Of a DNA stretch of 17,898 nt, positions 6,858-16,011 are shown piece by piece. The notes beneath the pieces are model-generated. The model did not search any database. It was not told the DNA's origin and saw nothing but the letters and a program-made list of their open reading frames with translations. How positions within the stretch are numbered: the first letter of the stretch is position 1; every line of letters starts with the position of its first letter. The position numbers and the translations under genes were made by a program. Origin of the DNA: Candidatus Tectimicrobiota bacterium (GTDB taxonomy: Bacteria > JACPSX01); contig JACPSX010000160.1 in assembly GCA_016193065.1 (NCBI GenBank), forward strand, positions 1-17,898, given 5' to 3'.

Positions 6858-8768
6858 TTGGCCAACAACACCGACATCTCAACCCTGATTACGCAGCTTC
6901 GCCAGCGCCTCGGGCTCAGCCAGGAAAAACTGGCGGCCCGGCTCCGGGTGTCCCTTCCAACAATCAACCGCTGGGAAAAAGGGAAAACGAAACCCGACTT
7001 ATTGGCGCTGCACGCCGTCGAGGTGTTCATTCAACAGCTCGGCGCGGAGTACCAGGACCTCTGCAAGCGCTACTTTCCTAATGAAACTGGAACTGCTCCA
7101 CCGGTAGAGGTCTCTGAAACTCCGAGACGCGGACGTCACAAGCGCAAGACAACCCAAAATGGCCCAGGCAGCACAGAGCCCAACGGAGGCAACGGCTCTG
7201 TCCTCGACACCAAGTCAATGGAAGGACTCCTCTGGAAGGCGGCCTGTTCCATCCGGGGCGAAAAGGACGCGCCGAAATTCAAGGCCTACATCCTGCCGCT
7301 GGTCTTCATCAAACGGCTCTCTGACGTTTTCGAAGACGAAATCGCGCGCCTCACAGCGACATACGAGGACGAGGAGACCGCTCGCACGGTGTTGGAAACA
7401 GATCATAGCCTGGTTCGCTTCTATATCCCACAAGAAGCCACTTGGACGGTTGTGAGCGGCCGCCGGAAATTCGATTGGCCTGAAGACAAGAAACCAAAGA
7501 CCCTGGGCGAACAGCTCACCAACACCATCCGCGCCATCGCCCGAGCCAACCCCTCGCTCCAGGGCGTCATCGATATCGCCGACTACAACGAGACCCGTAA
7601 CGGAGAACGGGAGATCAGCGACGAAGCTCTTTCGCGTCTGATCGAGCTCTTAAGCGATCCGCGCTACCGCTTGGGGTTAAACGACGTGGAGCCTGACTTC
7701 CTCGGGCGTGCTTACGAATATTTGCTTCGCAAGTTCGCCGAGGGTCAGGGACAAAGCGCGGGTGAGTTTTTTACGCCTAAAGAAGTGGGTTGGCTGATCG
7801 CCTATCTCATGAAGGCCAAGCAAGGCGAAGAGGTCTATGACCCATGCTGCGGTTCCGGTGGATTGCTCATCAAGTGTCAGCTCGCTCTGAAAGAGCAGGA
7901 AAAGGAAATCGCCCGGCCTCTTCAGCTTTGCGGCCAGGAATTAACCGGTTCCTCCTTCGCCATTGCCCGGATGAACATGGTCCTTCACGATATGGAGGGA
8001 GAGATAGTCCGTGGCAACACGATGACCAATCCGAAGTTTCTCGACGGATCGAGCCTCAAGAAGTTCGATATCGTGGTGACGAATCCCATGTGGAACCAGA
8101 ATAACTTCGATCCCGCCTCCTACGAAAACGATCCGTTCGAGCGCTTCACGGAACGCGGAGGATTCGCGCCCGCCTCGAGCGCCGACTGGGCCTGGCTCCA
8201 GCATGTCCTTGCTTCTCTCAATGACCACGGTCGCGCGGCCATGGTCATTGACACGGGTGCCGCAGGCCGCGGCAGTGGAAATCAGGGGGAAAACAAAGAG
8301 AAGACGATCCGCCGGTGGTTCGTGGACAACGACGTGATCGAAGGTGTGATCCTGCTCCCGGATAACCTTTTCTACAACACCACCGCTGCCGGAATCATCA
8401 TCCTCCTTAATTGCAAGAAGCCTAAAGACCGGCAAGGCAAAGTCGTTCTCGTCAACGCGAGCAACGAATTCCAGAAAGGCCGGCCCAAGAACTTTATTCC
8501 CGACGAGTCGATTCAAAAGATCGCCGAAGCCTTTCATTTAGGCAAGGACCTCGAACGGTTCGTCAAGGCGGTACCGGTCGAAGAAATTGCCAAGAACGAC
8601 TACAACCTCTCTCCATCCCGCTACATCGAAACCGCCGCCGCTACAGAGCACCGAGACGTCCAAACCATTCTGGATGAACTGGCAGGGCTTGAGGGCGATG
8701 CATCACGATTGGATCAGGAGATCAAAGAGATCTTTCGTGGGCTTGGATATCAATGGGGAGGAAAGTGA
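6858..8768 (+). CDS. hsdM: Type I R-M methyltransferase subunit HsdM with N-terminal XRE helix-turn-helix
   Basis: A 636-residue fusion. Residues 9-58 form an XRE/Cro-type helix-turn-helix (GLSQEKLAARLRVSLPTINR, then WEKGKTKP). Residues 73-117 are a polar, basic linker. From about 121 onward comes a full HsdM: the N-terminal helical domain ('MEGLLWKAACSIRGEKDAPK'), the 'GEFFTPKEVGWLIAYLM' entry to the methylase fold, the SAM-binding motif DPCCGSGG (residue 328 on) and the catalytic NPMW (409-412, the NPPF/Y motif of N6-adenine methylases). It methylates adenines at sites chosen by HsdS and is part of the restriction complex. The start is TTG at 6858, seven bases after GGGGAGG and just downstream of a strong promoter. 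The HTH is not part of standard HsdM and probably controls the operon. Its stop overlaps the next start (ATGA). Confidence 0.9.
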   Translation: MANNTDISTLITQLRQRLGLSQEKLAARLRVSLPTINRWEKGKTKPDLLALHAVEVFIQQLGAEYQDLCKRYFPNETGTAPPVEVSETPRRGRHKRKTTQNGPGSTEPNGGNGSVLDTKSMEGLLWKAACSIRGEKDAPKFKAYILPLVFIKRLSDVFEDEIARLTATYEDEETARTVLETDHSLVRFYIPQEATWTVVSGRRKFDWPEDKKPKTLGEQLTNTIRAIARANPSLQGVIDIADYNETRNGEREISDEALSRLIELLSDPRYRLGLNDVEPDFLGRAYEYLLRKFAEGQGQSAGEFFTPKEVGWLIAYLMKAKQGEEVYDPCCGSGGLLIKCQLALKEQEKEIARPLQLCGQELTGSSFAIARMNMVLHDMEGEIVRGNTMTNPKFLDGSSLKKFDIVVTNPMWNQNNFDPASYENDPFERFTERGGFAPASSADWAWLQHVLASLNDHGRAAMVIDTGAAGRGSGNQGENKEKTIRRWFVDNDVIEGVILLPDNLFYNTTAAGIIILLNCKKPKDRQGKVVLVNASNEFQKGRPKNFIPDESIQKIAEAFHLGKDLERFVKAVPVEEIAKNDYNLSPSRYIETAAATEHRDVQTILDELAGLEGDASRLDQEIKEIFRGLGYQWGGK

Positions 8769-9499
8769 TGACCACACTCGTACCAACGGAACGTATTGAC
8801 CACGCAATCCTTTTGATCCGAGGCCAGAAAGTCATGCTTGATGCGGATTTGGCTGAGCTTTACGGGGTCACAACCAAGGTGCTCAACCAGGCTGTGAATC
8901 GCAATAGGGACCGTTTTCCCGAGGATTTTATCTTTCAATTGACTGCCGACGAGAAAGCCAAGGTAGTCGCGAAGAGTCCCCACCTTCAATGTCTGAAGTT
9001 CTCGTCTGTGCTGCCCTGCGCTTTCACTGAACCGGGGGCTGGCATGCTGGCGAGTGTCTTGCGCAGCCCAGCAGCTACTAAAATTTCTATCGAGGTTCTG
9101 CGCGCTTTCGCACGACTCCGCCAGGAAGAAGAACCAGAGCCGTTACCCGAGAACAGCGGTGCCCGCAACCTGTTCGCCGCGATTCGCGATGCGATACTGC
9201 TCCAACCTGAAGACGAAATATACACCACAAGTGAGCCGTACACGTACTTCGTACAGGCTGGCGACCGGGGTCCCATCAAGATTGGCTCGACCAGAAACCT
9301 GCTGGTCCGTCTACGTACTCTATGCGCGATGTCTCCCGTGCCGCTGAAGCTCTTGGGCGTGATGAAGGGTGATGCTGAGGATCGGTGCCATCTCCGACTG
9401 GGCGCATTCCGCCTACATGGAGAATGGTTCGCTCCATCGTCCGTGGTGTTCGACTTCATTCGCGAGCATGCTGTGATACCCGAATCTGGAAGGGCATAA
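8768..9499 (+). CDS. ORF6N domain protein with C-terminal GIY-YIG-like (T5orf172/MUG113) domain
   Basis: A 243-residue protein. Residues 9 to about 90 are a classic ORF6N DNA-binding domain (ILLIRGQKVMLDADLAELYG, TKVLNQAVNRNRDRFPEDF), with a helical extension to 118. An acidic linker follows. Residues 158-232 look like the T5orf172/MUG113 branch of the GIY-YIG nuclease fold: 'YTYFVQAGDRGPIKIGSTRN', Arg181/Arg183, Glu204, His208 and a terminal GEWF (218-221). ORF6N proteins alone are known passengers between hsdM and hsdS; their role there is not understood. The GIY-YIG-like part suggests DNA cleavage or binding, but I cannot confirm an active site. The start is set at 8768 (ATGA overlap with hsdM, GGGGAGG five bases upstream), not the earlier ATG at 8753. 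Its TAA overlaps the hsdS ATG. Confidence 0.8.
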   Translation: MTTLVPTERIDHAILLIRGQKVMLDADLAELYGVTTKVLNQAVNRNRDRFPEDFIFQLTADEKAKVVAKSPHLQCLKFSSVLPCAFTEPGAGMLASVLRSPAATKISIEVLRAFARLRQEEEPEPLPENSGARNLFAAIRDAILLQPEDEIYTTSEPYTYFVQAGDRGPIKIGSTRNLLVRLRTLCAMSPVPLKLLGVMKGDAEDRCHLRLGAFRLHGEWFAPSSVVFDFIREHAVIPESGRA

Positions 9500-10776
9500 T
9501 GACCACCGATAACGGTCATGCTGAGATGCCGCAAGGATGGAGGAACGTTCCTCTTCGGTCGTTGTGCCTAAAAACTGAGTTGGCCGACCCAACGAAGAGT
9601 CCACATAAGTCTTTTCGATACATCGATGTCTCAGCCGTTTCGAATGGACTTTGGAAGATCATAAGCTCAACGGAACATACGGGTTCAACGGCACCGAGTC
9701 GTGCACGCAAGCTCGTGAAAGCCAATGATGTCATTTTCGCGACGGTGCGACCAACGCTGCGGCGGGTTGCTATGGTTCCAGATCACCTGGATGGTCAGGT
9801 GGTTTCCACCGCTTTTTGCGTCATCCGAGTCAACCCCACACAGGCGGATGCTCTTTTCATTTACTACTCGCTCTTGACTGACGAATTCCTTGATCGTATC
9901 GGGAACGTGCAACGAGGGGCCAGCTATCCTGCTGTGACTGACGGCGACGTTCTAAGGCAGGAGATACTTGTCCCTCCTCTTTCCGAGCAGTGCGCCATTG
10001 CGGCGGTGCTGTCGAAGATTCAGTCGGCTGTGGAGGTTCAGGAAAAGGTCGTCGCCACGCTGAAAGAGCTAAAAGCCGCAACCATGGCTAAGCTCTTCCG
10101 GGAGGGCCTGCGTGGCGAGCCCCTCAAGCAAACCGAAATCGGCGAGATCCCGCAGACCTGGGACGTTGTCCGGCTTGGCACCGTCGCCGAACTATTAAGC
10201 GGCGGAACACCTTCTAAGAGCCGCCCTGAGTGGTGGCGAGGACCGATTCCCTGGGCAAGCCCGAAGGACATGAAGCAGCCTCGATTGTGGGATACCCAAG
10301 ACCACATTTCTCAAGAGGCCCTCGAAGATGGGTCTCGCCTAGTTCCTGCTAGAACGCTTTTTGTCGTCATTCGCGGAATGATCCTTGCCAAGGACCTTCC
10401 GGTCGCAATGACTGAAGTCCCAATGGCATTCAACCAAGATATGAAGGCCGTCATACCGGCAGACTCAATTGACCCCGAGTATCTCCTTTATGCAATTGTT
10501 TCTTGTAAAGATGCATTAACTCGCGAAATCGGCACCTCCGCGCATGGTACTCGACGCATGGGCACTTCGTCGTTGGAAGCACTCCCAATCCCACGGCCGG
10601 AAAAGGATGAGCAGCGGGAGATCGCCAGAGCTATCCGAGCAGTTGAACAGCGAGAAGAGACGGCATTGAAAAGACGCGACCGGATCAAATCTCTCTTTTC
10701 CTCAATGCTGCACCTGCTCATGACCGGGGAAGTGCGGGTGAATCATTTAAAACTTAGCGAGGAACAAGATGGCTAA
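9499..10776 (+). CDS. hsdS: Type I R-M specificity subunit HsdS
   Basis: A 425-residue protein with the two-fold layout of HsdS. The first target recognition domain is about residues 10-160 (ends 'DGDVLRQEILVPPLSEQ'). The first conserved helical spacer follows at 165-203 (AIAAVLSKIQSAVEVQEKVV, ending in MAKLFREGL). The second recognition domain is about 212-368 ('IGEIPQTWDVVRLGTVAELL', 'GGTPSKSRPEWW'). The second spacer (371-412, EQREIARAIRAVEQREETAL) ends in LLMTGEVRV. It chooses the bipartite DNA target and docks two HsdM and two HsdR subunits. The recognised sequence cannot be read from the protein. The start at 9499 overlaps the upstream TAA (TAATG) and has GGAAGGG before it; an open extension to 9385 lies inside the upstream gene and is rejected. 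The last eight bases overlap the next gene. Confidence 0.92.
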   Translation: MTTDNGHAEMPQGWRNVPLRSLCLKTELADPTKSPHKSFRYIDVSAVSNGLWKIISSTEHTGSTAPSRARKLVKANDVIFATVRPTLRRVAMVPDHLDGQVVSTAFCVIRVNPTQADALFIYYSLLTDEFLDRIGNVQRGASYPAVTDGDVLRQEILVPPLSEQCAIAAVLSKIQSAVEVQEKVVATLKELKAATMAKLFREGLRGEPLKQTEIGEIPQTWDVVRLGTVAELLSGGTPSKSRPEWWRGPIPWASPKDMKQPRLWDTQDHISQEALEDGSRLVPARTLFVVIRGMILAKDLPVAMTEVPMAFNQDMKAVIPADSIDPEYLLYAIVSCKDALTREIGTSAHGTRRMGTSSLEALPIPRPEKDEQREIARAIRAVEQREETALKRRDRIKSLFSSMLHLLMTGEVRVNHLKLSEEQDG

Positions 10777-11710
10777 GCAGAAGAGACAAGAGGCACCAAG
10801 TAAAGGTTTCGGTCTCTCCTTGATGGATCGGATTCAAAACGAGGGCTCGATCCACCATGAGGCAGTGCGAAGGGTTGAGTCAATCACCAAGCGGAATCTG
10901 ATCTGCTATACGGCATTTCTCAGACATCCAGCAAGTACCATCATTCAGGAAGATAGCCAGTTTATCGAACACTTGCTTCGGTCAGTGAACCTCCAAGAGT
11001 ATCCAGATACTCTTGACCTCCTACTGCATACTCCGGGTGGGGATCCAACCGCTGCAGAGCGCATTGTAAAGACCTGCAGATCCTACGCTAAGTCCTTCCA
11101 GGTGATCGTTCCTCAGACTGCCATGAGTGCTGGGACACTTATCGCTATGGGCGCAGAATCAATCCTCATGACCGAAACTTCAGAGTTGGGTCCAATTGAT
11201 CCACAAATGATCATATCAAGTGGCAAAGAGCAGACGTTACGACCGGCTGCAGCGTTTGTGGACGCCTATATGGATTTAATCAATAAATCACAGGAAGCGA
11301 TTCGGAAAGGAGATCCCCCACATCCCTACATTGAACTCCTGCGGAGGATGGATCCCACATGGATTCAAGTTTGTCTCAAGGCTCGGGAACTCGCGCGAAC
11401 TATCGCTGGAGAATTCTTAGAGCAGTACATGCTTAATGGAAAAGACAAGAAAGAAATCGAACGAACCGTCGAATGTTTTATGAAAGAAGGTGAGTTGCTT
11501 TCCCATGGGCGAATCATCCGGCACGCTAAAGCCAAGGAGTACGGGTTAAACGTAAAAGTGATCCCGAAGGGAACCCCACTTGATGAAGCACTGTGGGAAC
11601 TACAGACCCGCTGTGAAAACTACGTCCAGTCGCGGAGTCTCGCGAAGTACCTGGTTTGTCGTTCCGGTGGGATTAATGTCAGTGTGCGTATGCAGAGACT
11701 GTCCGTTTAG
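10769..11710 (+). CDS. Serine dehydrogenase proteinase (SDH) family, ClpP/SppA-fold serine protease
   Basis: A 313-residue protein of the SDH-proteinase family in the ClpP/SppA (crotonase-fold) clan. Visible features are the oxyanion-type TPGG (88-91, in 'LDLLLHTPGGDP'), the nucleophile block with Ser120 in TAMSAGTLIAMGAESI, and the following 'TSELGPIDPQM' that is diagnostic of the family. There is no signal peptide and no convincing membrane segment, so it should be cytoplasmic. It begins inside the last codons of hsdS (8-base overlap, GCGAGGA ribosome site) and is the last gene of the first unit. Known biology: E. coli ClpXP degrades HsdR to relieve restriction. Inference: a dedicated protease here could tune or be triggered by the R-M complex. 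Its stop overlaps tail-to-tail with the opposite-strand gene. Confidence 0.82.
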   Translation: MAKQKRQEAPSKGFGLSLMDRIQNEGSIHHEAVRRVESITKRNLICYTAFLRHPASTIIQEDSQFIEHLLRSVNLQEYPDTLDLLLHTPGGDPTAAERIVKTCRSYAKSFQVIVPQTAMSAGTLIAMGAESILMTETSELGPIDPQMIISSGKEQTLRPAAAFVDAYMDLINKSQEAIRKGDPPHPYIELLRRMDPTWIQVCLKARELARTIAGEFLEQYMLNGKDKKEIERTVECFMKEGELLSHGRIIRHAKAKEYGLNVKVIPKGTPLDEALWELQTRCENYVQSRSLAKYLVCRSGGINVSVRMQRLSV

Positions 11711-11931
11711 ATAGAAGCATGGACCTGATATGAAAAATTCGCTTCGGCGACATAATTTGGCACTTCAGATTCCCCAGGCAACTCAGCAGGTAGGTCTAAA
11801 TAGAGAGAGCCTAATTTGTCAACCAGCTTCTGATACTGTTCAAAGTTCTTTAGGAGATCTTCCTCAGTGACTGAAGTAATCATTTCAGATTCCAGACCTG
11901 TTGGTTCGAGATTCCGGATTTCCTTTTTCAC
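11707..11931 (-). CDS. Small acidic hypothetical protein, opposite strand, probably leaderless
   Basis: A 74-residue acidic, helix-prone protein (MKKEIRNLEPTGLESEMI, 'TEEDLLKNFEQYQKLVDKLG', then 'LYLDLPAELPGESEVPNYVA'). I do not recognise the family. There is no signal peptide or membrane segment. Support for reality comes from a well-spaced promoter immediately upstream on the same strand (11938-11966), whose predicted +1 falls on the first base of the GTG start, and from exact tail-to-tail packing against the protease gene (4-base overlap). An internal ATG (codon 17) is an alternative start for a 58-residue product. It sits between the two R-M units on the opposite strand. It could be an antitoxin-like, inhibitor or control protein, but nothing in the sequence proves that. 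Confidence 0.6.
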   Translation of the reverse strand: MKKEIRNLEPTGLESEMITSVTEEDLLKNFEQYQKLVDKLGSLYLDLPAELPGESEVPNYVAEANFSYQVHASI

Positions 11932-11937
11932 AAGCGT

Positions 11938-11966
11938 ACTATACCCAAATCAGAGACCAGCGTCAA
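11938..11966 (-). promoter_or_regulatory. Promoter of the small opposite-strand gene
   Basis: On the minus strand TTGACG (11961-11966), 17 bases, TATAGT (11938-11943). Both hexamers are close to consensus. The usual 7-base distance from the -10 puts +1 at about 11931, the G of the GTG start codon, so the message would have no leader. Confidence 0.6.
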
Positions 11967-12085: not shown

Positions 12086-12220
12086 ATGCCCCTCAATCTC
12101 GGTTCCGAACGGGCCACAGTCCAAGACCCACTGATCGGTTACGCCGTTGAGATCGGGTGGGCCTATCTTTGTCCTTGGAAAAAGAATGGCAGCTTAAGAA
12201 ACCAAGAGAGGGCGATATGA
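12086..12220 (+). pseudogene. hsdR 5' remnant (about 30 codons homologous to the HsdR N-terminus)
   Basis: A 44-codon reading frame whose first 30 residues (MPLNLGSERATVQDPLIGYA, then VEIGWAYLCP) match the start of the full HsdR at 12782 in 24 of 30 positions. At DNA level codons 12-26 (12119-12163) match 12815-12859 in 43 of 45 bases, while codons 2-11 differ often, including synonymous changes. After residue 30 the similarity stops and 14 unrelated codons lead to a TGA that overlaps the next ATG (ATGA). It has a strong GGAGGT ribosome site and its own candidate promoter, better start signals than the full hsdR copy. It is probably the broken start of a different hsdR allele, left when the MNT-HEPN cassette or a new hsdR arrived. 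It may still be translated and coupled to the MNT gene. Confidence 0.75.
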
Positions 12221-12546
12221 AAGCGAGAAAGAAGGTCTTAAGCGAAGGGGTCCTTCAGGAAACCGTCCGGCGGATTGTTGAAGTTGCCAAGCCGGAGAAG
12301 ATCATTCTTTTTGGCTCGGCGGCACGGGGTGAGCTGGGGCCGGACAGTGATCTGGATTTCCTGGTAATCAAGGCATGCAGTCACCGGCGGAATACGGCCC
12401 GCAGAATTCGACGTGCCCTGTTCGGTATTGGCGTGCCCATAGACATCATCGTTGCGAAACCGGAGGACATCGAACGCTACAAAGACGCGATAGGTCTCCT
12501 CTATCGTCCTGCCTTGAGGGAGGGAAAGGTCCTCTATGCCGCCTAA
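12217..12546 (+). CDS. Minimal nucleotidyltransferase (MNT) domain protein, antitoxin-type
   Basis: A 109-residue minimal nucleotidyltransferase of the pol-beta fold. The motif GS-x10-DxD is complete (Gly33, Ser34, Asp45, Asp47 in LFGSAARGELGPDSDLDFLV), and the third acidic residue is Asp76 in VPIDIIV. Family knowledge: MNT proteins pair with HEPN proteins as toxin-antitoxin modules, and studied MntA antitoxins inactivate the HEPN ribonuclease by adding AMP. The start is set at 12217, overlapping the stop of the hsdR remnant (ATGA) with GAGAGGG before it; an open extension to 12157 lies within the remnant and is rejected. It overlaps the HEPN gene by 11 bases. All catalytic residues appear intact although the partner is damaged. 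Confidence 0.85.
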   Translation: MKARKKVLSEGVLQETVRRIVEVAKPEKIILFGSAARGELGPDSDLDFLVIKACSHRRNTARRIRRALFGIGVPIDIIVAKPEDIERYKDAIGLLYRPALREGKVLYAA

Positions 12547-12775
12547 GACTGATCCCACTGGACAACCAAAGGAATGGCTGCGGCGTGCGAAGGGTGAGGG
12601 TCACTCAATCCCTCAGGAGATATGGGAAGCAGTTGATCTAACCGATTATGCGGTTGAGACCCGCTATCCAGGACCGGCGGAACCAGTAACACAGAAGGAG
12701 TATCGAGCAGCAGTTAGGATAGCCGAGCAAGTCGTTAAGTGGGCAGGAAGAATTATCTCAGGAAAACAGCGATAA
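12536..12775 (+). CDS. HEPN domain protein with large in-frame internal deletion
   Basis: A 79-residue protein whose two ends match the MNT-associated HEPN family (PF05168-like): the start MPPKTDPTGQPKEWLRRAK and the end 'EAVDLTDYAVETRYPGPAEP', 'TQKEYRAAVRIAEQVVKWA'. Full family members are about 130-140 residues. The missing middle normally holds the 'CFHAQQAAEKALKA' helix and the HDL segment, so roughly 55-60 residues are lost near residues 19-24, with the frame kept. The core of the HEPN four-helix bundle is therefore absent and nuclease activity is unlikely. The gene overlaps the MNT gene by 11 bases and ends six bases before hsdR. It may be a dead toxin, a non-toxic decoy, or simply a scar that preserves coupling to hsdR. 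The family lengths are from memory. Confidence 0.7.
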   Translation: MPPKTDPTGQPKEWLRRAKGEGHSIPQEIWEAVDLTDYAVETRYPGPAEPVTQKEYRAAVRIAEQVVKWAGRIISGKQR

Positions 12776-12781
12776 AGAGCC

Positions 12782-15670
12782 ATGGCAACTAGCCTCGCCT
12801 CGGAAAGAGCTACGGTCCAAGACCCACTGATCAGCTACGCCGTTGAGATCGGGTGGGCCTACCTGTCACCAGAGCAAGCCCTGAGCCTCCGGCGAGGGGA
12901 AAGCGGCACGCTTCTGTACCAGGTCCTTCGCGATAAACTTATCGCTCTCAATCCGGGCGTTGTGACCATGGAAACCGTCGATCAGGTCATTTCGAGAATC
13001 GAGAACGTCCGCAACAACATCGAGGGGAATGCCGAGGTGCTGGCATGGCTACGAGGTGAACGCTCGGTCTACGTGGAGAGCGAGAAGCGCCAGAGGAACG
13101 TTACGCTTATCGACTTTGAACACCCCGCCCACAACGTCTTCCACGTCTCCGACGAGTGGGAATACACAAACGGACGGCACACAAACCGAGCCGATGTAAT
13201 GTTTCTCATCAACGGCGTCCCCCTGGCACTGGTCGAGACCAAGGGCGCAACGAAACAGGACGGGATCGATGAGGGGGTCACTCAGATCCGGCGCTACCAC
13301 CGGGAGACGCCGGAACTCATGACCGCAACGCAGGTGTTTGATGTCACTCACCTCATCGACTTCTATTACGGAGTCACCTGGAACCTGGATCGTAAGGACC
13401 TCTTCAACTGGAAAGACGAGGAGAAAGGCCACTTCGAGAAGAAGGTAAAAAGATTCTTCAGCCGGGAGCGTTTTCTCAAGCTGGTTGGAGAATGGATCGT
13501 ATTCTTCAAGAGAGATGACGAACTGCGAAAGATCGTCTTGCGGCAGCACCAGACACGGGCGGTGGAAAAGGTCGTCGAGCGCACTCTCGACCCGGAGAAG
13601 AAAAGGGGCTTGGTGTGGCACACACAGGGGTCCGGAAAAACCTTCACGATGATCAAGGCAGCCGAACAAATCCTCCAGCATTCGGCCTTCGAGAAGCCCA
13701 CAGTCATCATGCTGGTAGACCGAAATGAGCTGGAAGGCCAGCTTTCCGGTTGGATTGCGAGTGTACTGGGTGCGGGTAAGGCAGAGCCCGCCTACAGCAA
13801 GCAACGTCTGCGCGAACTTTTGCGTTCGGACTACCGCGGCCTCATCGTCTCGATGATTCACAAATTCGACCGTGCAGACGCAGACCTTTGCACACGAGAA
13901 AACGTCTTTATTCTGGTGGATGAGGCCCACCGGAGCATGAGCGGAGACCTGGGTAACTACCTCGTGGCCGCCCTGCCCAACGCCACGATGATCGGCTTTA
14001 CCGGCACGCCGATCGACAAGATCGCCTACGGCAAAGGAACCTTTAAAGTATTCGGCAAGGACGACCCGAAAGGCTACCTGGACAAGTACTCCATTTCCGA
14101 GTCTATCGAGGATGGAACGACACTGCCGCTCCATTACACGCTGGCACCGAACGACATCCGCGTGCCTCCCGATCAACTGGAGAGAGAGTTCTTCGATCTG
14201 GTGGAGGCCGAAGGGATCAGTGATATCGAGGAGCTGAACAAGATTCTTGACAAGGCAGTGAATCTGAAGGCCTTCCTCAAGGCCTCCGACCGGGTCGAAA
14301 AGGTGGCTCACTATGTCGCTCGCCACTTCCGCGAGAACATCCAACCTCTGGGCTACAAGGCTTTTCTCGTGGGGGTCGATCGGGAAGTCTGTGCTCTCTA
14401 CAAGAACGCTCTGGACCGGCAACTGCCGGCGGATTACTCAACCGTCGTTTATACCTCTGCCCATAACGACAGCGAGCTGCTGGCCCAATACCGTCTTAGT
14501 GAAGAAGGCGAAAAGAAGATCCGCAAAGCGTTTCTCAAGAGGGATGCGCTCCCAAAAATCCTCATCGTTACTGAAAAGCTGCTGACGGGCTTTGATGCTC
14601 CGATTCTTTACTGCATGTACCTGGACAAGCCGATGCGGGATCACACACTGCTCCAGGCAATCGCTCGGGTCAACCGTCCCTACGAGGAAGAGGGAGAAAT
14701 CAAGAAGCCGGCGGGGTTCGTTCTCGATTTCGTTGGGATCTTTGCCAAGCTTGAGAAGGCACTGGCCTTCGATTCGGATTTTGTCGGAAGCGTCATCCAG
14801 GATCTGGACGTCCTCAAGCACCGCTTCTCCATGCTCATGACGGACCAGGCGCCAGAGTATCTCGCCCTCTCCCAGGGCCGTATTGATGACAAGGCTGTTG
14901 AGCGCGCCATCGAAACCTTTGCCGATCAGGAGAAGCGCAACAGGTTCTATAAGTTCTTCAGAGAAATCGAGATGCTCTACGAGATCATCTCGCCGGATAT
15001 ATTCCTCCGGGAACATCTAGACAACTATGGAAAGCTCTCAGTCCTGTACGAGATCGTCCGAAATAACTTTGCCAAGCGCGTTGCCCTCTCCAAGGATATA
15101 GCGAAAAAAACCGAGGGGTTAATCCGTGAACAAGCTGAAGCCTATGGGCTTAAAACGGCCATGCCGATCGTGGAGATCGATGAGAAAACCATTGACGCCT
15201 TGAGGAAGTCGGGTCCATCAGACCCTGCGAAGGTGATCAACCTGGGGAAAAGCCTGGCCAAGAAAGTTTTTGAGGAAGCCGAGCGGGCCCCCTATCTGAT
15301 ACCGATCGGCGAGCGCGCTGAAGCGATCCTTGATTCTTACGACGACCGGCAGATGACTACGCAGGAAGCATTTGAGCGGATCCGGGCATTAATGGAGCAA
15401 TACCTTCAGGCACATAAGGAGCGAGAAAAGTCCGGATTCGACGACAACACGTTCGCAGTTTATCTGGTGCTAAGACAGTTCGGCGCGTCTCAGCCAGAGA
15501 AAGTCGCGCCTTTGGTCAACTCCGCCTTTCAACGATTCCCAAACTACGGGTACAACACTTCGGAGCAGCGCCATCTCAAGGCCGAGCTATACAAGGTGCT
15601 GTTACGCGCAGTCGGAAAGGAACGCATGGTGGATCTGGCGGAAAATCTCCTCCGGCTGCCGCGAAAATGA
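12782..15670 (+). CDS. hsdR: Type I R-M restriction subunit HsdR (endonuclease and translocase)
   Basis: A 962-residue HsdR, full length for the family. The N-terminal PD-(D/E)xK nuclease shows Asp138 and Glu152-x-Lys154 (NRADVMFLINGVPLALVETK). The superfamily 2 motor follows: Walker A GSGKT with Lys286 and Thr287 (TQGSGKTFTM), DEAH at 380-383 (VDEAHRSMSGDL), the motif III block GFTGTPID, and motif VI 'LLQAIARVNRPYEEEGEIKK'. The helical C-terminal region that binds the methylase core continues to the end. With HsdM and HsdS it translocates DNA and cuts unmethylated invaders. All catalytic residues appear intact. The start at 12782 has only a weak ribosome site and follows the HEPN stop by six bases, so it may depend on coupling. 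Its TGA overlaps the ATG of the peptidase gene. Confidence 0.93.
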   Translation: MATSLASERATVQDPLISYAVEIGWAYLSPEQALSLRRGESGTLLYQVLRDKLIALNPGVVTMETVDQVISRIENVRNNIEGNAEVLAWLRGERSVYVESEKRQRNVTLIDFEHPAHNVFHVSDEWEYTNGRHTNRADVMFLINGVPLALVETKGATKQDGIDEGVTQIRRYHRETPELMTATQVFDVTHLIDFYYGVTWNLDRKDLFNWKDEEKGHFEKKVKRFFSRERFLKLVGEWIVFFKRDDELRKIVLRQHQTRAVEKVVERTLDPEKKRGLVWHTQGSGKTFTMIKAAEQILQHSAFEKPTVIMLVDRNELEGQLSGWIASVLGAGKAEPAYSKQRLRELLRSDYRGLIVSMIHKFDRADADLCTRENVFILVDEAHRSMSGDLGNYLVAALPNATMIGFTGTPIDKIAYGKGTFKVFGKDDPKGYLDKYSISESIEDGTTLPLHYTLAPNDIRVPPDQLEREFFDLVEAEGISDIEELNKILDKAVNLKAFLKASDRVEKVAHYVARHFRENIQPLGYKAFLVGVDREVCALYKNALDRQLPADYSTVVYTSAHNDSELLAQYRLSEEGEKKIRKAFLKRDALPKILIVTEKLLTGFDAPILYCMYLDKPMRDHTLLQAIARVNRPYEEEGEIKKPAGFVLDFVGIFAKLEKALAFDSDFVGSVIQDLDVLKHRFSMLMTDQAPEYLALSQGRIDDKAVERAIETFADQEKRNRFYKFFREIEMLYEIISPDIFLREHLDNYGKLSVLYEIVRNNFAKRVALSKDIAKKTEGLIREQAEAYGLKTAMPIVEIDEKTIDALRKSGPSDPAKVINLGKSLAKKVFEEAERAPYLIPIGERAEAILDSYDDRQMTTQEAFERIRALMEQYLQAHKEREKSGFDDNTFAVYLVLRQFGASQPEKVAPLVNSAFQRFPNYGYNTSEQRHLKAELYKVLLRAVGKERMVDLAENLLRLPRK

Positions 15671-16011
15671 AAACTTCAAAGCGGGAGACTTCCCAAAAAG
15701 CCGAGACTCTAAGAAGTAATGTGCAGAACTGGGCGGCAAAGATCGGCGTGAGGCCCAGGCGCGTTCAGATCCAGCACATGACGACGAAATGGGCTTCCTG
15801 CTCGCCCGCGGGTCGGATCTGTCTTAGCAAAGATCTCCTCCAGGAAGACACTGCATTTCAAGAGGCGGTCATCGTTCACGAGCTTCTTCACCTTCGTGTG
15901 CCCAACCACGGGAAATTGTTCAAGAGCCTGATGAATGCCTATCTGCCGGAATGGGAGGAGGCAGCGCGGGGACGTGTCGGACGTGTGTGCGGATACAGAG
16001 ATCCTTCTTGA
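15667..16011 (+). CDS. YgjP/DUF45-like M48-type zinc metallopeptidase
   Basis: A 114-residue protein with the YgjP/DUF45 signature: 'IQHMTTKWASCSPAGRICLS' (the conserved W-x-S-C strand), then the zinc motif HELLH (71-75) followed by PNHGKLF with His81 as third ligand. Compared with free-standing YgjP proteins it lacks the N-terminal strand region and is short, a form seen beside hsdR in other genomes (recall). It starts inside the hsdR stop (ATGA overlap) and so is strongly coupled to it. It has no signal peptide and should be cytoplasmic. Its substrate is unknown. With the SDH protease it makes two unrelated proteases in one R-M locus. It is the last gene of the island. Confidence 0.85.
   Translation: MKTSKRETSQKAETLRSNVQNWAAKIGVRPRRVQIQHMTTKWASCSPAGRICLSKDLLQEDTAFQEAVIVHELLHLRVPNHGKLFKSLMNAYLPEWEEAARGRVGRVCGYRDPS

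Follow-up and report, generated by a model that had tools for sequence, protein, structure and literature searches.

A soluble SDH-type protease of predicted ClpP fold and a tiny partner gene between hsdS and hsdR of a type I restriction-modification operon

The window analyzed here, the whole stretch of 17,898 nucleotides at positions 1 to 17,898 of contig JACPSX010000160.1 (assembly GCA_016193065.1, Candidatus Tectimicrobiota bacterium), contains a type I restriction-modification (R-M) operon that is apparently complete, with HsdM, HsdS and HsdR all present. Between hsdS and hsdR, we found a soluble SDH-type peptidase from a mobile gene family together with a tiny conserved partner gene. Our preferred reading, to which we assign a probability of roughly 45%, is that this pair was captured by the operon and may serve there as a latent proteolytic effector.

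Catalytic residues, predicted fold and family of the protease

The open reading frame (ORF) of the protease is unbroken and encodes 313 amino acids (Table 1). The first-pass annotation had placed its start inside hsdS, and this was borne out by reading the sequence: the protease ATG lies at 10769 and the hsdS TAA at 10774-10776, giving an overlap of 8 nt, and a GAGG was noted a few bases 5' of the ATG. Because of this overlap co-translation of the two genes is probable, and the translation of the protease is probably coupled to that of hsdS.

The retention of the TPGG loop and of the nucleophile Ser120, also claimed earlier, was confirmed. TPGG was found at residues 88-91 and Ser120 in an MSAGT motif, and the residues invariant in 71 aligned relatives were D83, L84, P89, G90, G91, P115, S120, G141, D144, P145, Q146 and H246. 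Ser120, Asp144 and His246 were also kept in the membrane-type SDH outgroup, together with G90 and G91, and a Ser-Asp-His triad is suggested by this pattern of conservation. A frameshifted or decayed copy was ruled out, as both the ORF and the catalytic set are intact.

Against the Pfam family PF01972 (SDH_protease), the protease scored 69.3 bits with a cut-off of 31.3 (E = 3.5e-19), the best stretch being limited to amino acids 61-148, and the residues conserved in that family (GG loop, nucleophile Ser, Asp and His) were all found. It reached 82.4 bits against the NCBIfam equivalog NF047768 (Clp_like_SDH), for which the curated cut-off is 250, and 18.1 bits against ClpP (PF00574), for which the gathering cut-off is 20.2. 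As the latter score is below the cut-off and the fold is common to both, the protease resembles ClpP without being one. By far the best family match was phrog_11747, a phage protein family listed with unknown function in its annotation (E = 1.2e-46); residues 30-265 of the protease matched positions 9-242 of the 290 in this profile, which is near full length.

The AlphaFold2 model of the protease, built with its relatives, had a pLDDT of 90.4 and a pTM of 0.88. A VIA-align fold search returned ClpP chains (Z 13.8) and the Pyrococcus 1510-N protease (Z 13.4), and a sequence search of solved structures gave weak matches only (1510-N protease, E = 0.029). From these computations the protease is predicted to have the ClpP fold, which agrees with the earlier description of a ClpP/SppA-fold protease in a type I R-M operon. 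The N-terminal transmembrane helix of the membrane-anchored SDH proteins was absent from a hydropathy scan near the N-terminus of the protease, where the top 19-residue mean was 0.35 compared to 1.5 to 2.4 in the membrane type. The protease matches the SDH families PF01972 and NF047768 in fold and in the positions of the GG loop, Ser, Asp and His, but differs from them by the missing membrane helix, the NF047768 score (82 vs 250 bits), the tiny partner, and a clade of its own on the tree, separate from membrane SDH.

Operon context and distribution of the family

The features of the operon and the loci of related proteases are collected in Table 1. The hsdS ATG at 9499 overlaps the preceding stop codon, and the longest mechanical ORF for this gene starts at 9385. 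The interval between hsdS and hsdR appears to have taken several insertions, since an hsdR remnant, an mntA-like gene and a truncated hepT were all found there; neither these features nor the convergent tiny gene had been mentioned by the first-pass annotation. The mntA-like gene scored 29.9 bits against the MntA model, under its cut-off of 60.

Further observations were made on the operon. The fusion of a helix-turn-helix domain to HsdM possibly makes it a self-regulating methyltransferase. The accessory gene that follows overlaps both hsdM and hsdS; its product corresponds to the PADLOC candidate PDC-S05 (E = 2.3e-44) and resembles phage anti-repressors (phrog_4792, E = 4.8e-21). The nucleotidyltransferase and HEPN genes look like a type VII pair in which the antitoxin-like half was kept and the toxin-like HEPN half is broken, being without its first half. 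The duplicate of the hsdR 5' end in front of them suggests that the hsdS-hsdR interval underwent insertion or recombination.

Table 1. Coordinates of features in the window and of related protease loci in other genomes
Feature	Position	Strand	Basis
hsdM, fused N-terminal Xre-type HTH	6858..8768	+	PF01381, E 1.9e-12, aa 13-51
hsdM, methylase part	6858..8768	+	HsdM_N, E 7.5e-23; N6_Mtase, E 9.9e-92
Accessory protein, ORF6N + T5orf172 (GIY-YIG-like)	8753..9499	+	PF10543, E 1.3e-28
hsdS	9499..10776	+	Methylase_S, two stretches, E 1.4e-25
SDH-type protease of predicted ClpP fold, cytosolic, phrog_11747 family	10769..11710	+	Profiles, conservation, AlphaFold2, fold search
Tiny partner gene, 58 aa, convergent	11883-11707	-	Recurrence, dN/dS, shuffle test
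Promoter-like site TTGACG-17-TATAGT, 5' of tiny gene	11938..11966	-	Consensus match only
hsdR 5'-end remnant	12098..12168	+	86% identity over 71 nt with 12794-12864
mntA-like nucleotidyltransferase	12218..12546	+	NTP_transf_2, E 5.1e-10
Truncated hepT-like HEPN gene	12536..12775	+	PF05168, E 1.8e-6, profile positions 59-115 of 117 only
hsdR	12782..15670	+	TIGR00348, E 4.2e-142
YgjP-like metallopeptidase, overlaps hsdR end	15667..16011	+	PF01863, E 3.9e-27
E. coli prophage SDH locus L138	7812-8885		
E. coli prophage SDH loci L145, L146, L147	2501-3574		
Multiubiquitin-operon loci L002, L003, L005, L048, L049, L052, L053, L057, L059, L081, L096, L142			

Relatives of the protease were encountered by plasmid and genome searches in phages, prophages, plasmids, multiubiquitin-E2-E1-DUF6527 operons and defense-like loci; the phylum search around the genome of the window sampled that genome alone. 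A scan of viral_contigs with the single protease sequence gave no match. In E. coli prophages, the SDH gene directly follows a cI-type repressor gene and is itself directly followed by a 56-aa gene, and in one annotated prophage it sits between cI and N, the place of rexA/rexB in lambda. The E. coli copy was matched in 19 of 5426 complete genomes, in 17 of them over most of the query. At L044 (302-4440) and L131 (400-3908), a ResIII helicase and a TnsA-like nuclease lie downstream of the protease, with a HerA-like gene upstream of it in L044, and this looks like an undescribed defense locus. In the multiubiquitin-E2-E1-DUF6527 operons an SDH protease is the last gene, and the proteases sampled from these operons group as a single clade in the tree. 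PADLOC contained no model for the protease. A literature search that covered few subscription journals and preprints found no function for any family member, nothing on this protease under multiubiquitin with DUF6527 or under the family names, and nothing naming an SDH protease together with type I R-M, in keeping with the earlier statement that no established role was known. Proteases are not mentioned in PMC9519451.

We then assessed how often the family lies near type I R-M genes, an association that the first-pass annotation had proposed to count. Among 94 soluble-type homologues in 86 genomes, with the window left out of the count, 3 had HsdM_N within 5 kb, where 0.48 would be expected (Poisson P = 0.013), and 5 had it within 10 kb, where 0.96 would be expected (P = 0.003). 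The genomes were picked by protease similarity and not by R-M content, and their broken contigs reduce the observed count. The enrichment near hsdM is real but weak, and the R-M-embedded copies are polyphyletic. Gene orders differed among these copies: hsdM-hsdS-protease-membrane ORFs-hsdR-YgjP in L060, with a gap of 2 bp between hsdS and the protease; tiny gene-protease-hsdM-hsdS-hsdR in L103; and hsdR-protease-83 aa-DUF5131-hsdS-hsdM in L141 (341-7590). DUF5131 was thus observed inside an R-M operon in the last of these. On the tree, the four embedded copies (window, L060, L103 and L141) need at least four separate origins. Because few homologues lie near HsdM and the origins are separate, R-M operons have captured such proteases repeatedly and the family is not their own. 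In view of the weak enrichment and the polyphyly, we rejected the idea that the gene is specific to type I R-M. The nearest relative of the window protease (L043, 59% identity) stands alone among housekeeping genes, which indicates that the R-M link is not needed.

Tiny partner genes of the protease

The stop codons of the tiny gene and the protease overlap by 4 nt. The start sites of the tiny ORFs are uncertain, and a GTG at 11931 is an alternative start for the copy in the window. The promoter-like site 5' of this gene matches 10 of 12 consensus bases, and 3 such sites were found in the stretch compared to 0.8 expected. A convergent tiny gene follows the protease in all four readable members of the window clade (L043, L044, L131 and L133), with L045 left out because its contig ends there. 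Protease identity to the window is 59% for L043 (Phycisphaerae), 46% for L044 (Nitrospirae) and for L131, and 38% for L133, L131 having been drawn from a sample of the L044 phylum and L133 from a sample of the L043 phylum.

The tiny proteins of this clade have in common a helix-like N-terminal part, in which TEKDLL/NFE occurs (only weakly in L133), and aromatic C-terminal tails (FSYQVHASI, YSYDIHVTS, FIYTISSC and FQYQISSV). Comparison of the L044 and L131 copies of the tiny gene gave a dN of 0.069 and a dS of 0.585 (dN/dS about 0.12), and the other two frames were unbiased. The alignment score of the window protein with that of L044 was reached by 0 of 2000 shuffles, and with that of L043 it was equalled or exceeded by one shuffle of 2000. 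These computations indicate a conserved partner gene under purifying selection. An adjacent, small, coding partner of this sort is found in toxin-antitoxin pairs. A chance antisense ORF was considered as an explanation of the tiny gene and rejected, given the dN/dS value and the reappearance of the gene at the corresponding position in other genomes. No Pfam family scored above its cut-off with the tiny protein, and its AlphaFold model was weak (pLDDT 68), with one helix and a loose tail.

Tiny genes were also frequent in the wider family. Among testable homologues outside the window clade, 43 of 68 had a same-strand gene of 50-100 aa directly upstream, compared to 26 of 455 control ORFs (250 aa or longer) taken from those loci (Fisher exact test; P = 2e-27), with one simple ORF picker used alike on both sets. 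By this upstream criterion the remaining 25 of 68 had no tiny gene, and the multiubiquitin-linked homologues seem to use other neighbors instead. Many of the upstream tiny proteins carry a tail of the type YFxKLSMYDxYTPVxTSGxTTLIS, the tail motifs having been recognized by eye and carrying no statistic. In the E. coli pair, dN/dS was about 0.31 for the tiny gene and 0.04 for the protease. The tiny genes are under purifying selection, yet change faster than the protease, as would be expected for an inhibitor that determines specificity. The partner position varies by branch, being upstream, downstream or convergent. Tiny genes with a common SGYDLxPxF motif were also observed directly downstream of SDH proteases at L136 (8921-9151) and L139 (8858-9064), representing another partner type.

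Known systems and competing explanations

In the EcoprrI operon, the prrC gene lies between hsdS and hsdR, the slot that the protease occupies in the window. An effector-type gene is likewise embedded in the hsd operon here, with L060 and L141 as independent cases. PrrC is an anticodon nuclease that is embedded in the type IC EcoprrI operon, where the R-M complex keeps it sequestered until infection by T4 (PMC3874165). EcoprrI is the closest working model for the protease module, although the window instead carries a protease of predicted ClpP fold with its own tiny partner. The E. coli homologues stand directly after cI, in the position of rexA/rexB in lambdoid prophages, and beside a 56-aa gene, but the proteins are unrelated as far as known and the likeness is one of position. 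The window copy also departs from the phrog_11747 pattern, as it lies in an R-M operon and its partner is convergent instead of upstream.

Under the preferred reading, a soluble SDH-type serine peptidase of the mobile phrog_11747 family would work with a tiny, fast-evolving partner, and the two would have been inserted as a module between hsdS and hsdR. The partner may bind the protease, perhaps with the aromatic tail at its C-terminus, and either keep it silent or license it. Once the partner is lost, or once a phage brings about some change, the peptidase would be free to act against cell or phage proteins. The module would ride in the R-M operon and may be gated by it, as PrrC is in EcoprrI. 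Of the two roles put forward by the first-pass annotation, an effector coupled to R-M is the better.

The other of those roles, a private protease that would degrade HsdR and so alleviate restriction, we judge very improbable. It draws on the degradation of EcoKI HsdR by ClpXP during translocation (PMC4231737), alleviation needing ClpX on the translocating motor (PMC4231737, PMC3874165), and on the presence of a ClpP-type fold in the same operon as hsdR. However, the likeness to ClpP ends at the fold and a possible type I R-M link: the order of the residues is Ser-Asp-His in the window protease and Ser-His-Asp in ClpP, no Clp-type unfoldase was found among the family matches of the operon, the host genome encodes its own ClpP (G000:C29, E = 4.6e-86), the gene family lies mostly far from hsd, and the type IC system EcoR124I is alleviated without ClpXP (PMC3874165). 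Even less credible is that an ordinary protein-quality enzyme of the membrane-SDH type came here by chance; membership of the Pfam SDH_protease family would fit this, but the protease has no membrane anchor, belongs to a clade apart from membrane SDH and has relatives in mobile contexts.

A strong rival, which we regard as possible though well short of probable, is a self-standing addiction or cargo module of protease and tiny antitoxin, carried in the operon as a passenger with no functional link to restriction. About 95% of the homologues lie away from hsdM, the closest relative stands alone, the R-M copies are polyphyletic, and the mntA, truncated hepT and hsdR remnant indicate that the interval between hsdS and hsdR received insertions more than once, all of which speaks for this rival. 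Against it stand the modest enrichment near hsdM and the same-strand arrangement with hsdS, an overlap in the window and a gap of 2 bp in the unrelated L060, giving co-expression, which cargo inserted at random could do without. The tiny protein might alternatively be the substrate of the protease, cut to free a signal or a phage-acting peptide. This reading is improbable: the common aromatic tail near the C-terminus and the fast evolution of the tiny proteins would suit it, but no signal sequence or exporter was found beside the pairs examined, and the convergent genes of the window clade imply separate transcripts.

More broadly, these proteases could represent a new class of defense or exclusion module, in which a tiny cognate inhibitor would hold a soluble ClpP-fold protease in check. 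Phages and plasmids would spread such modules, and R-M and ubiquitin-like operons would have incorporated them repeatedly, sensing infection and releasing the protease; we put this forward tentatively, as rather doubtful. If true, R-M operons, prophage immunity regions and bacterial ubiquitin-like systems would have in common an unrecognized effector principle, in which a small mobile enzyme of ClpP fold acts by proteolysis. Because of the tiny partner gene the effector reading can be tested directly, and the copy in E. coli prophages, together with the 56-aa partner, offers a convenient model in a host that is easy to work with.
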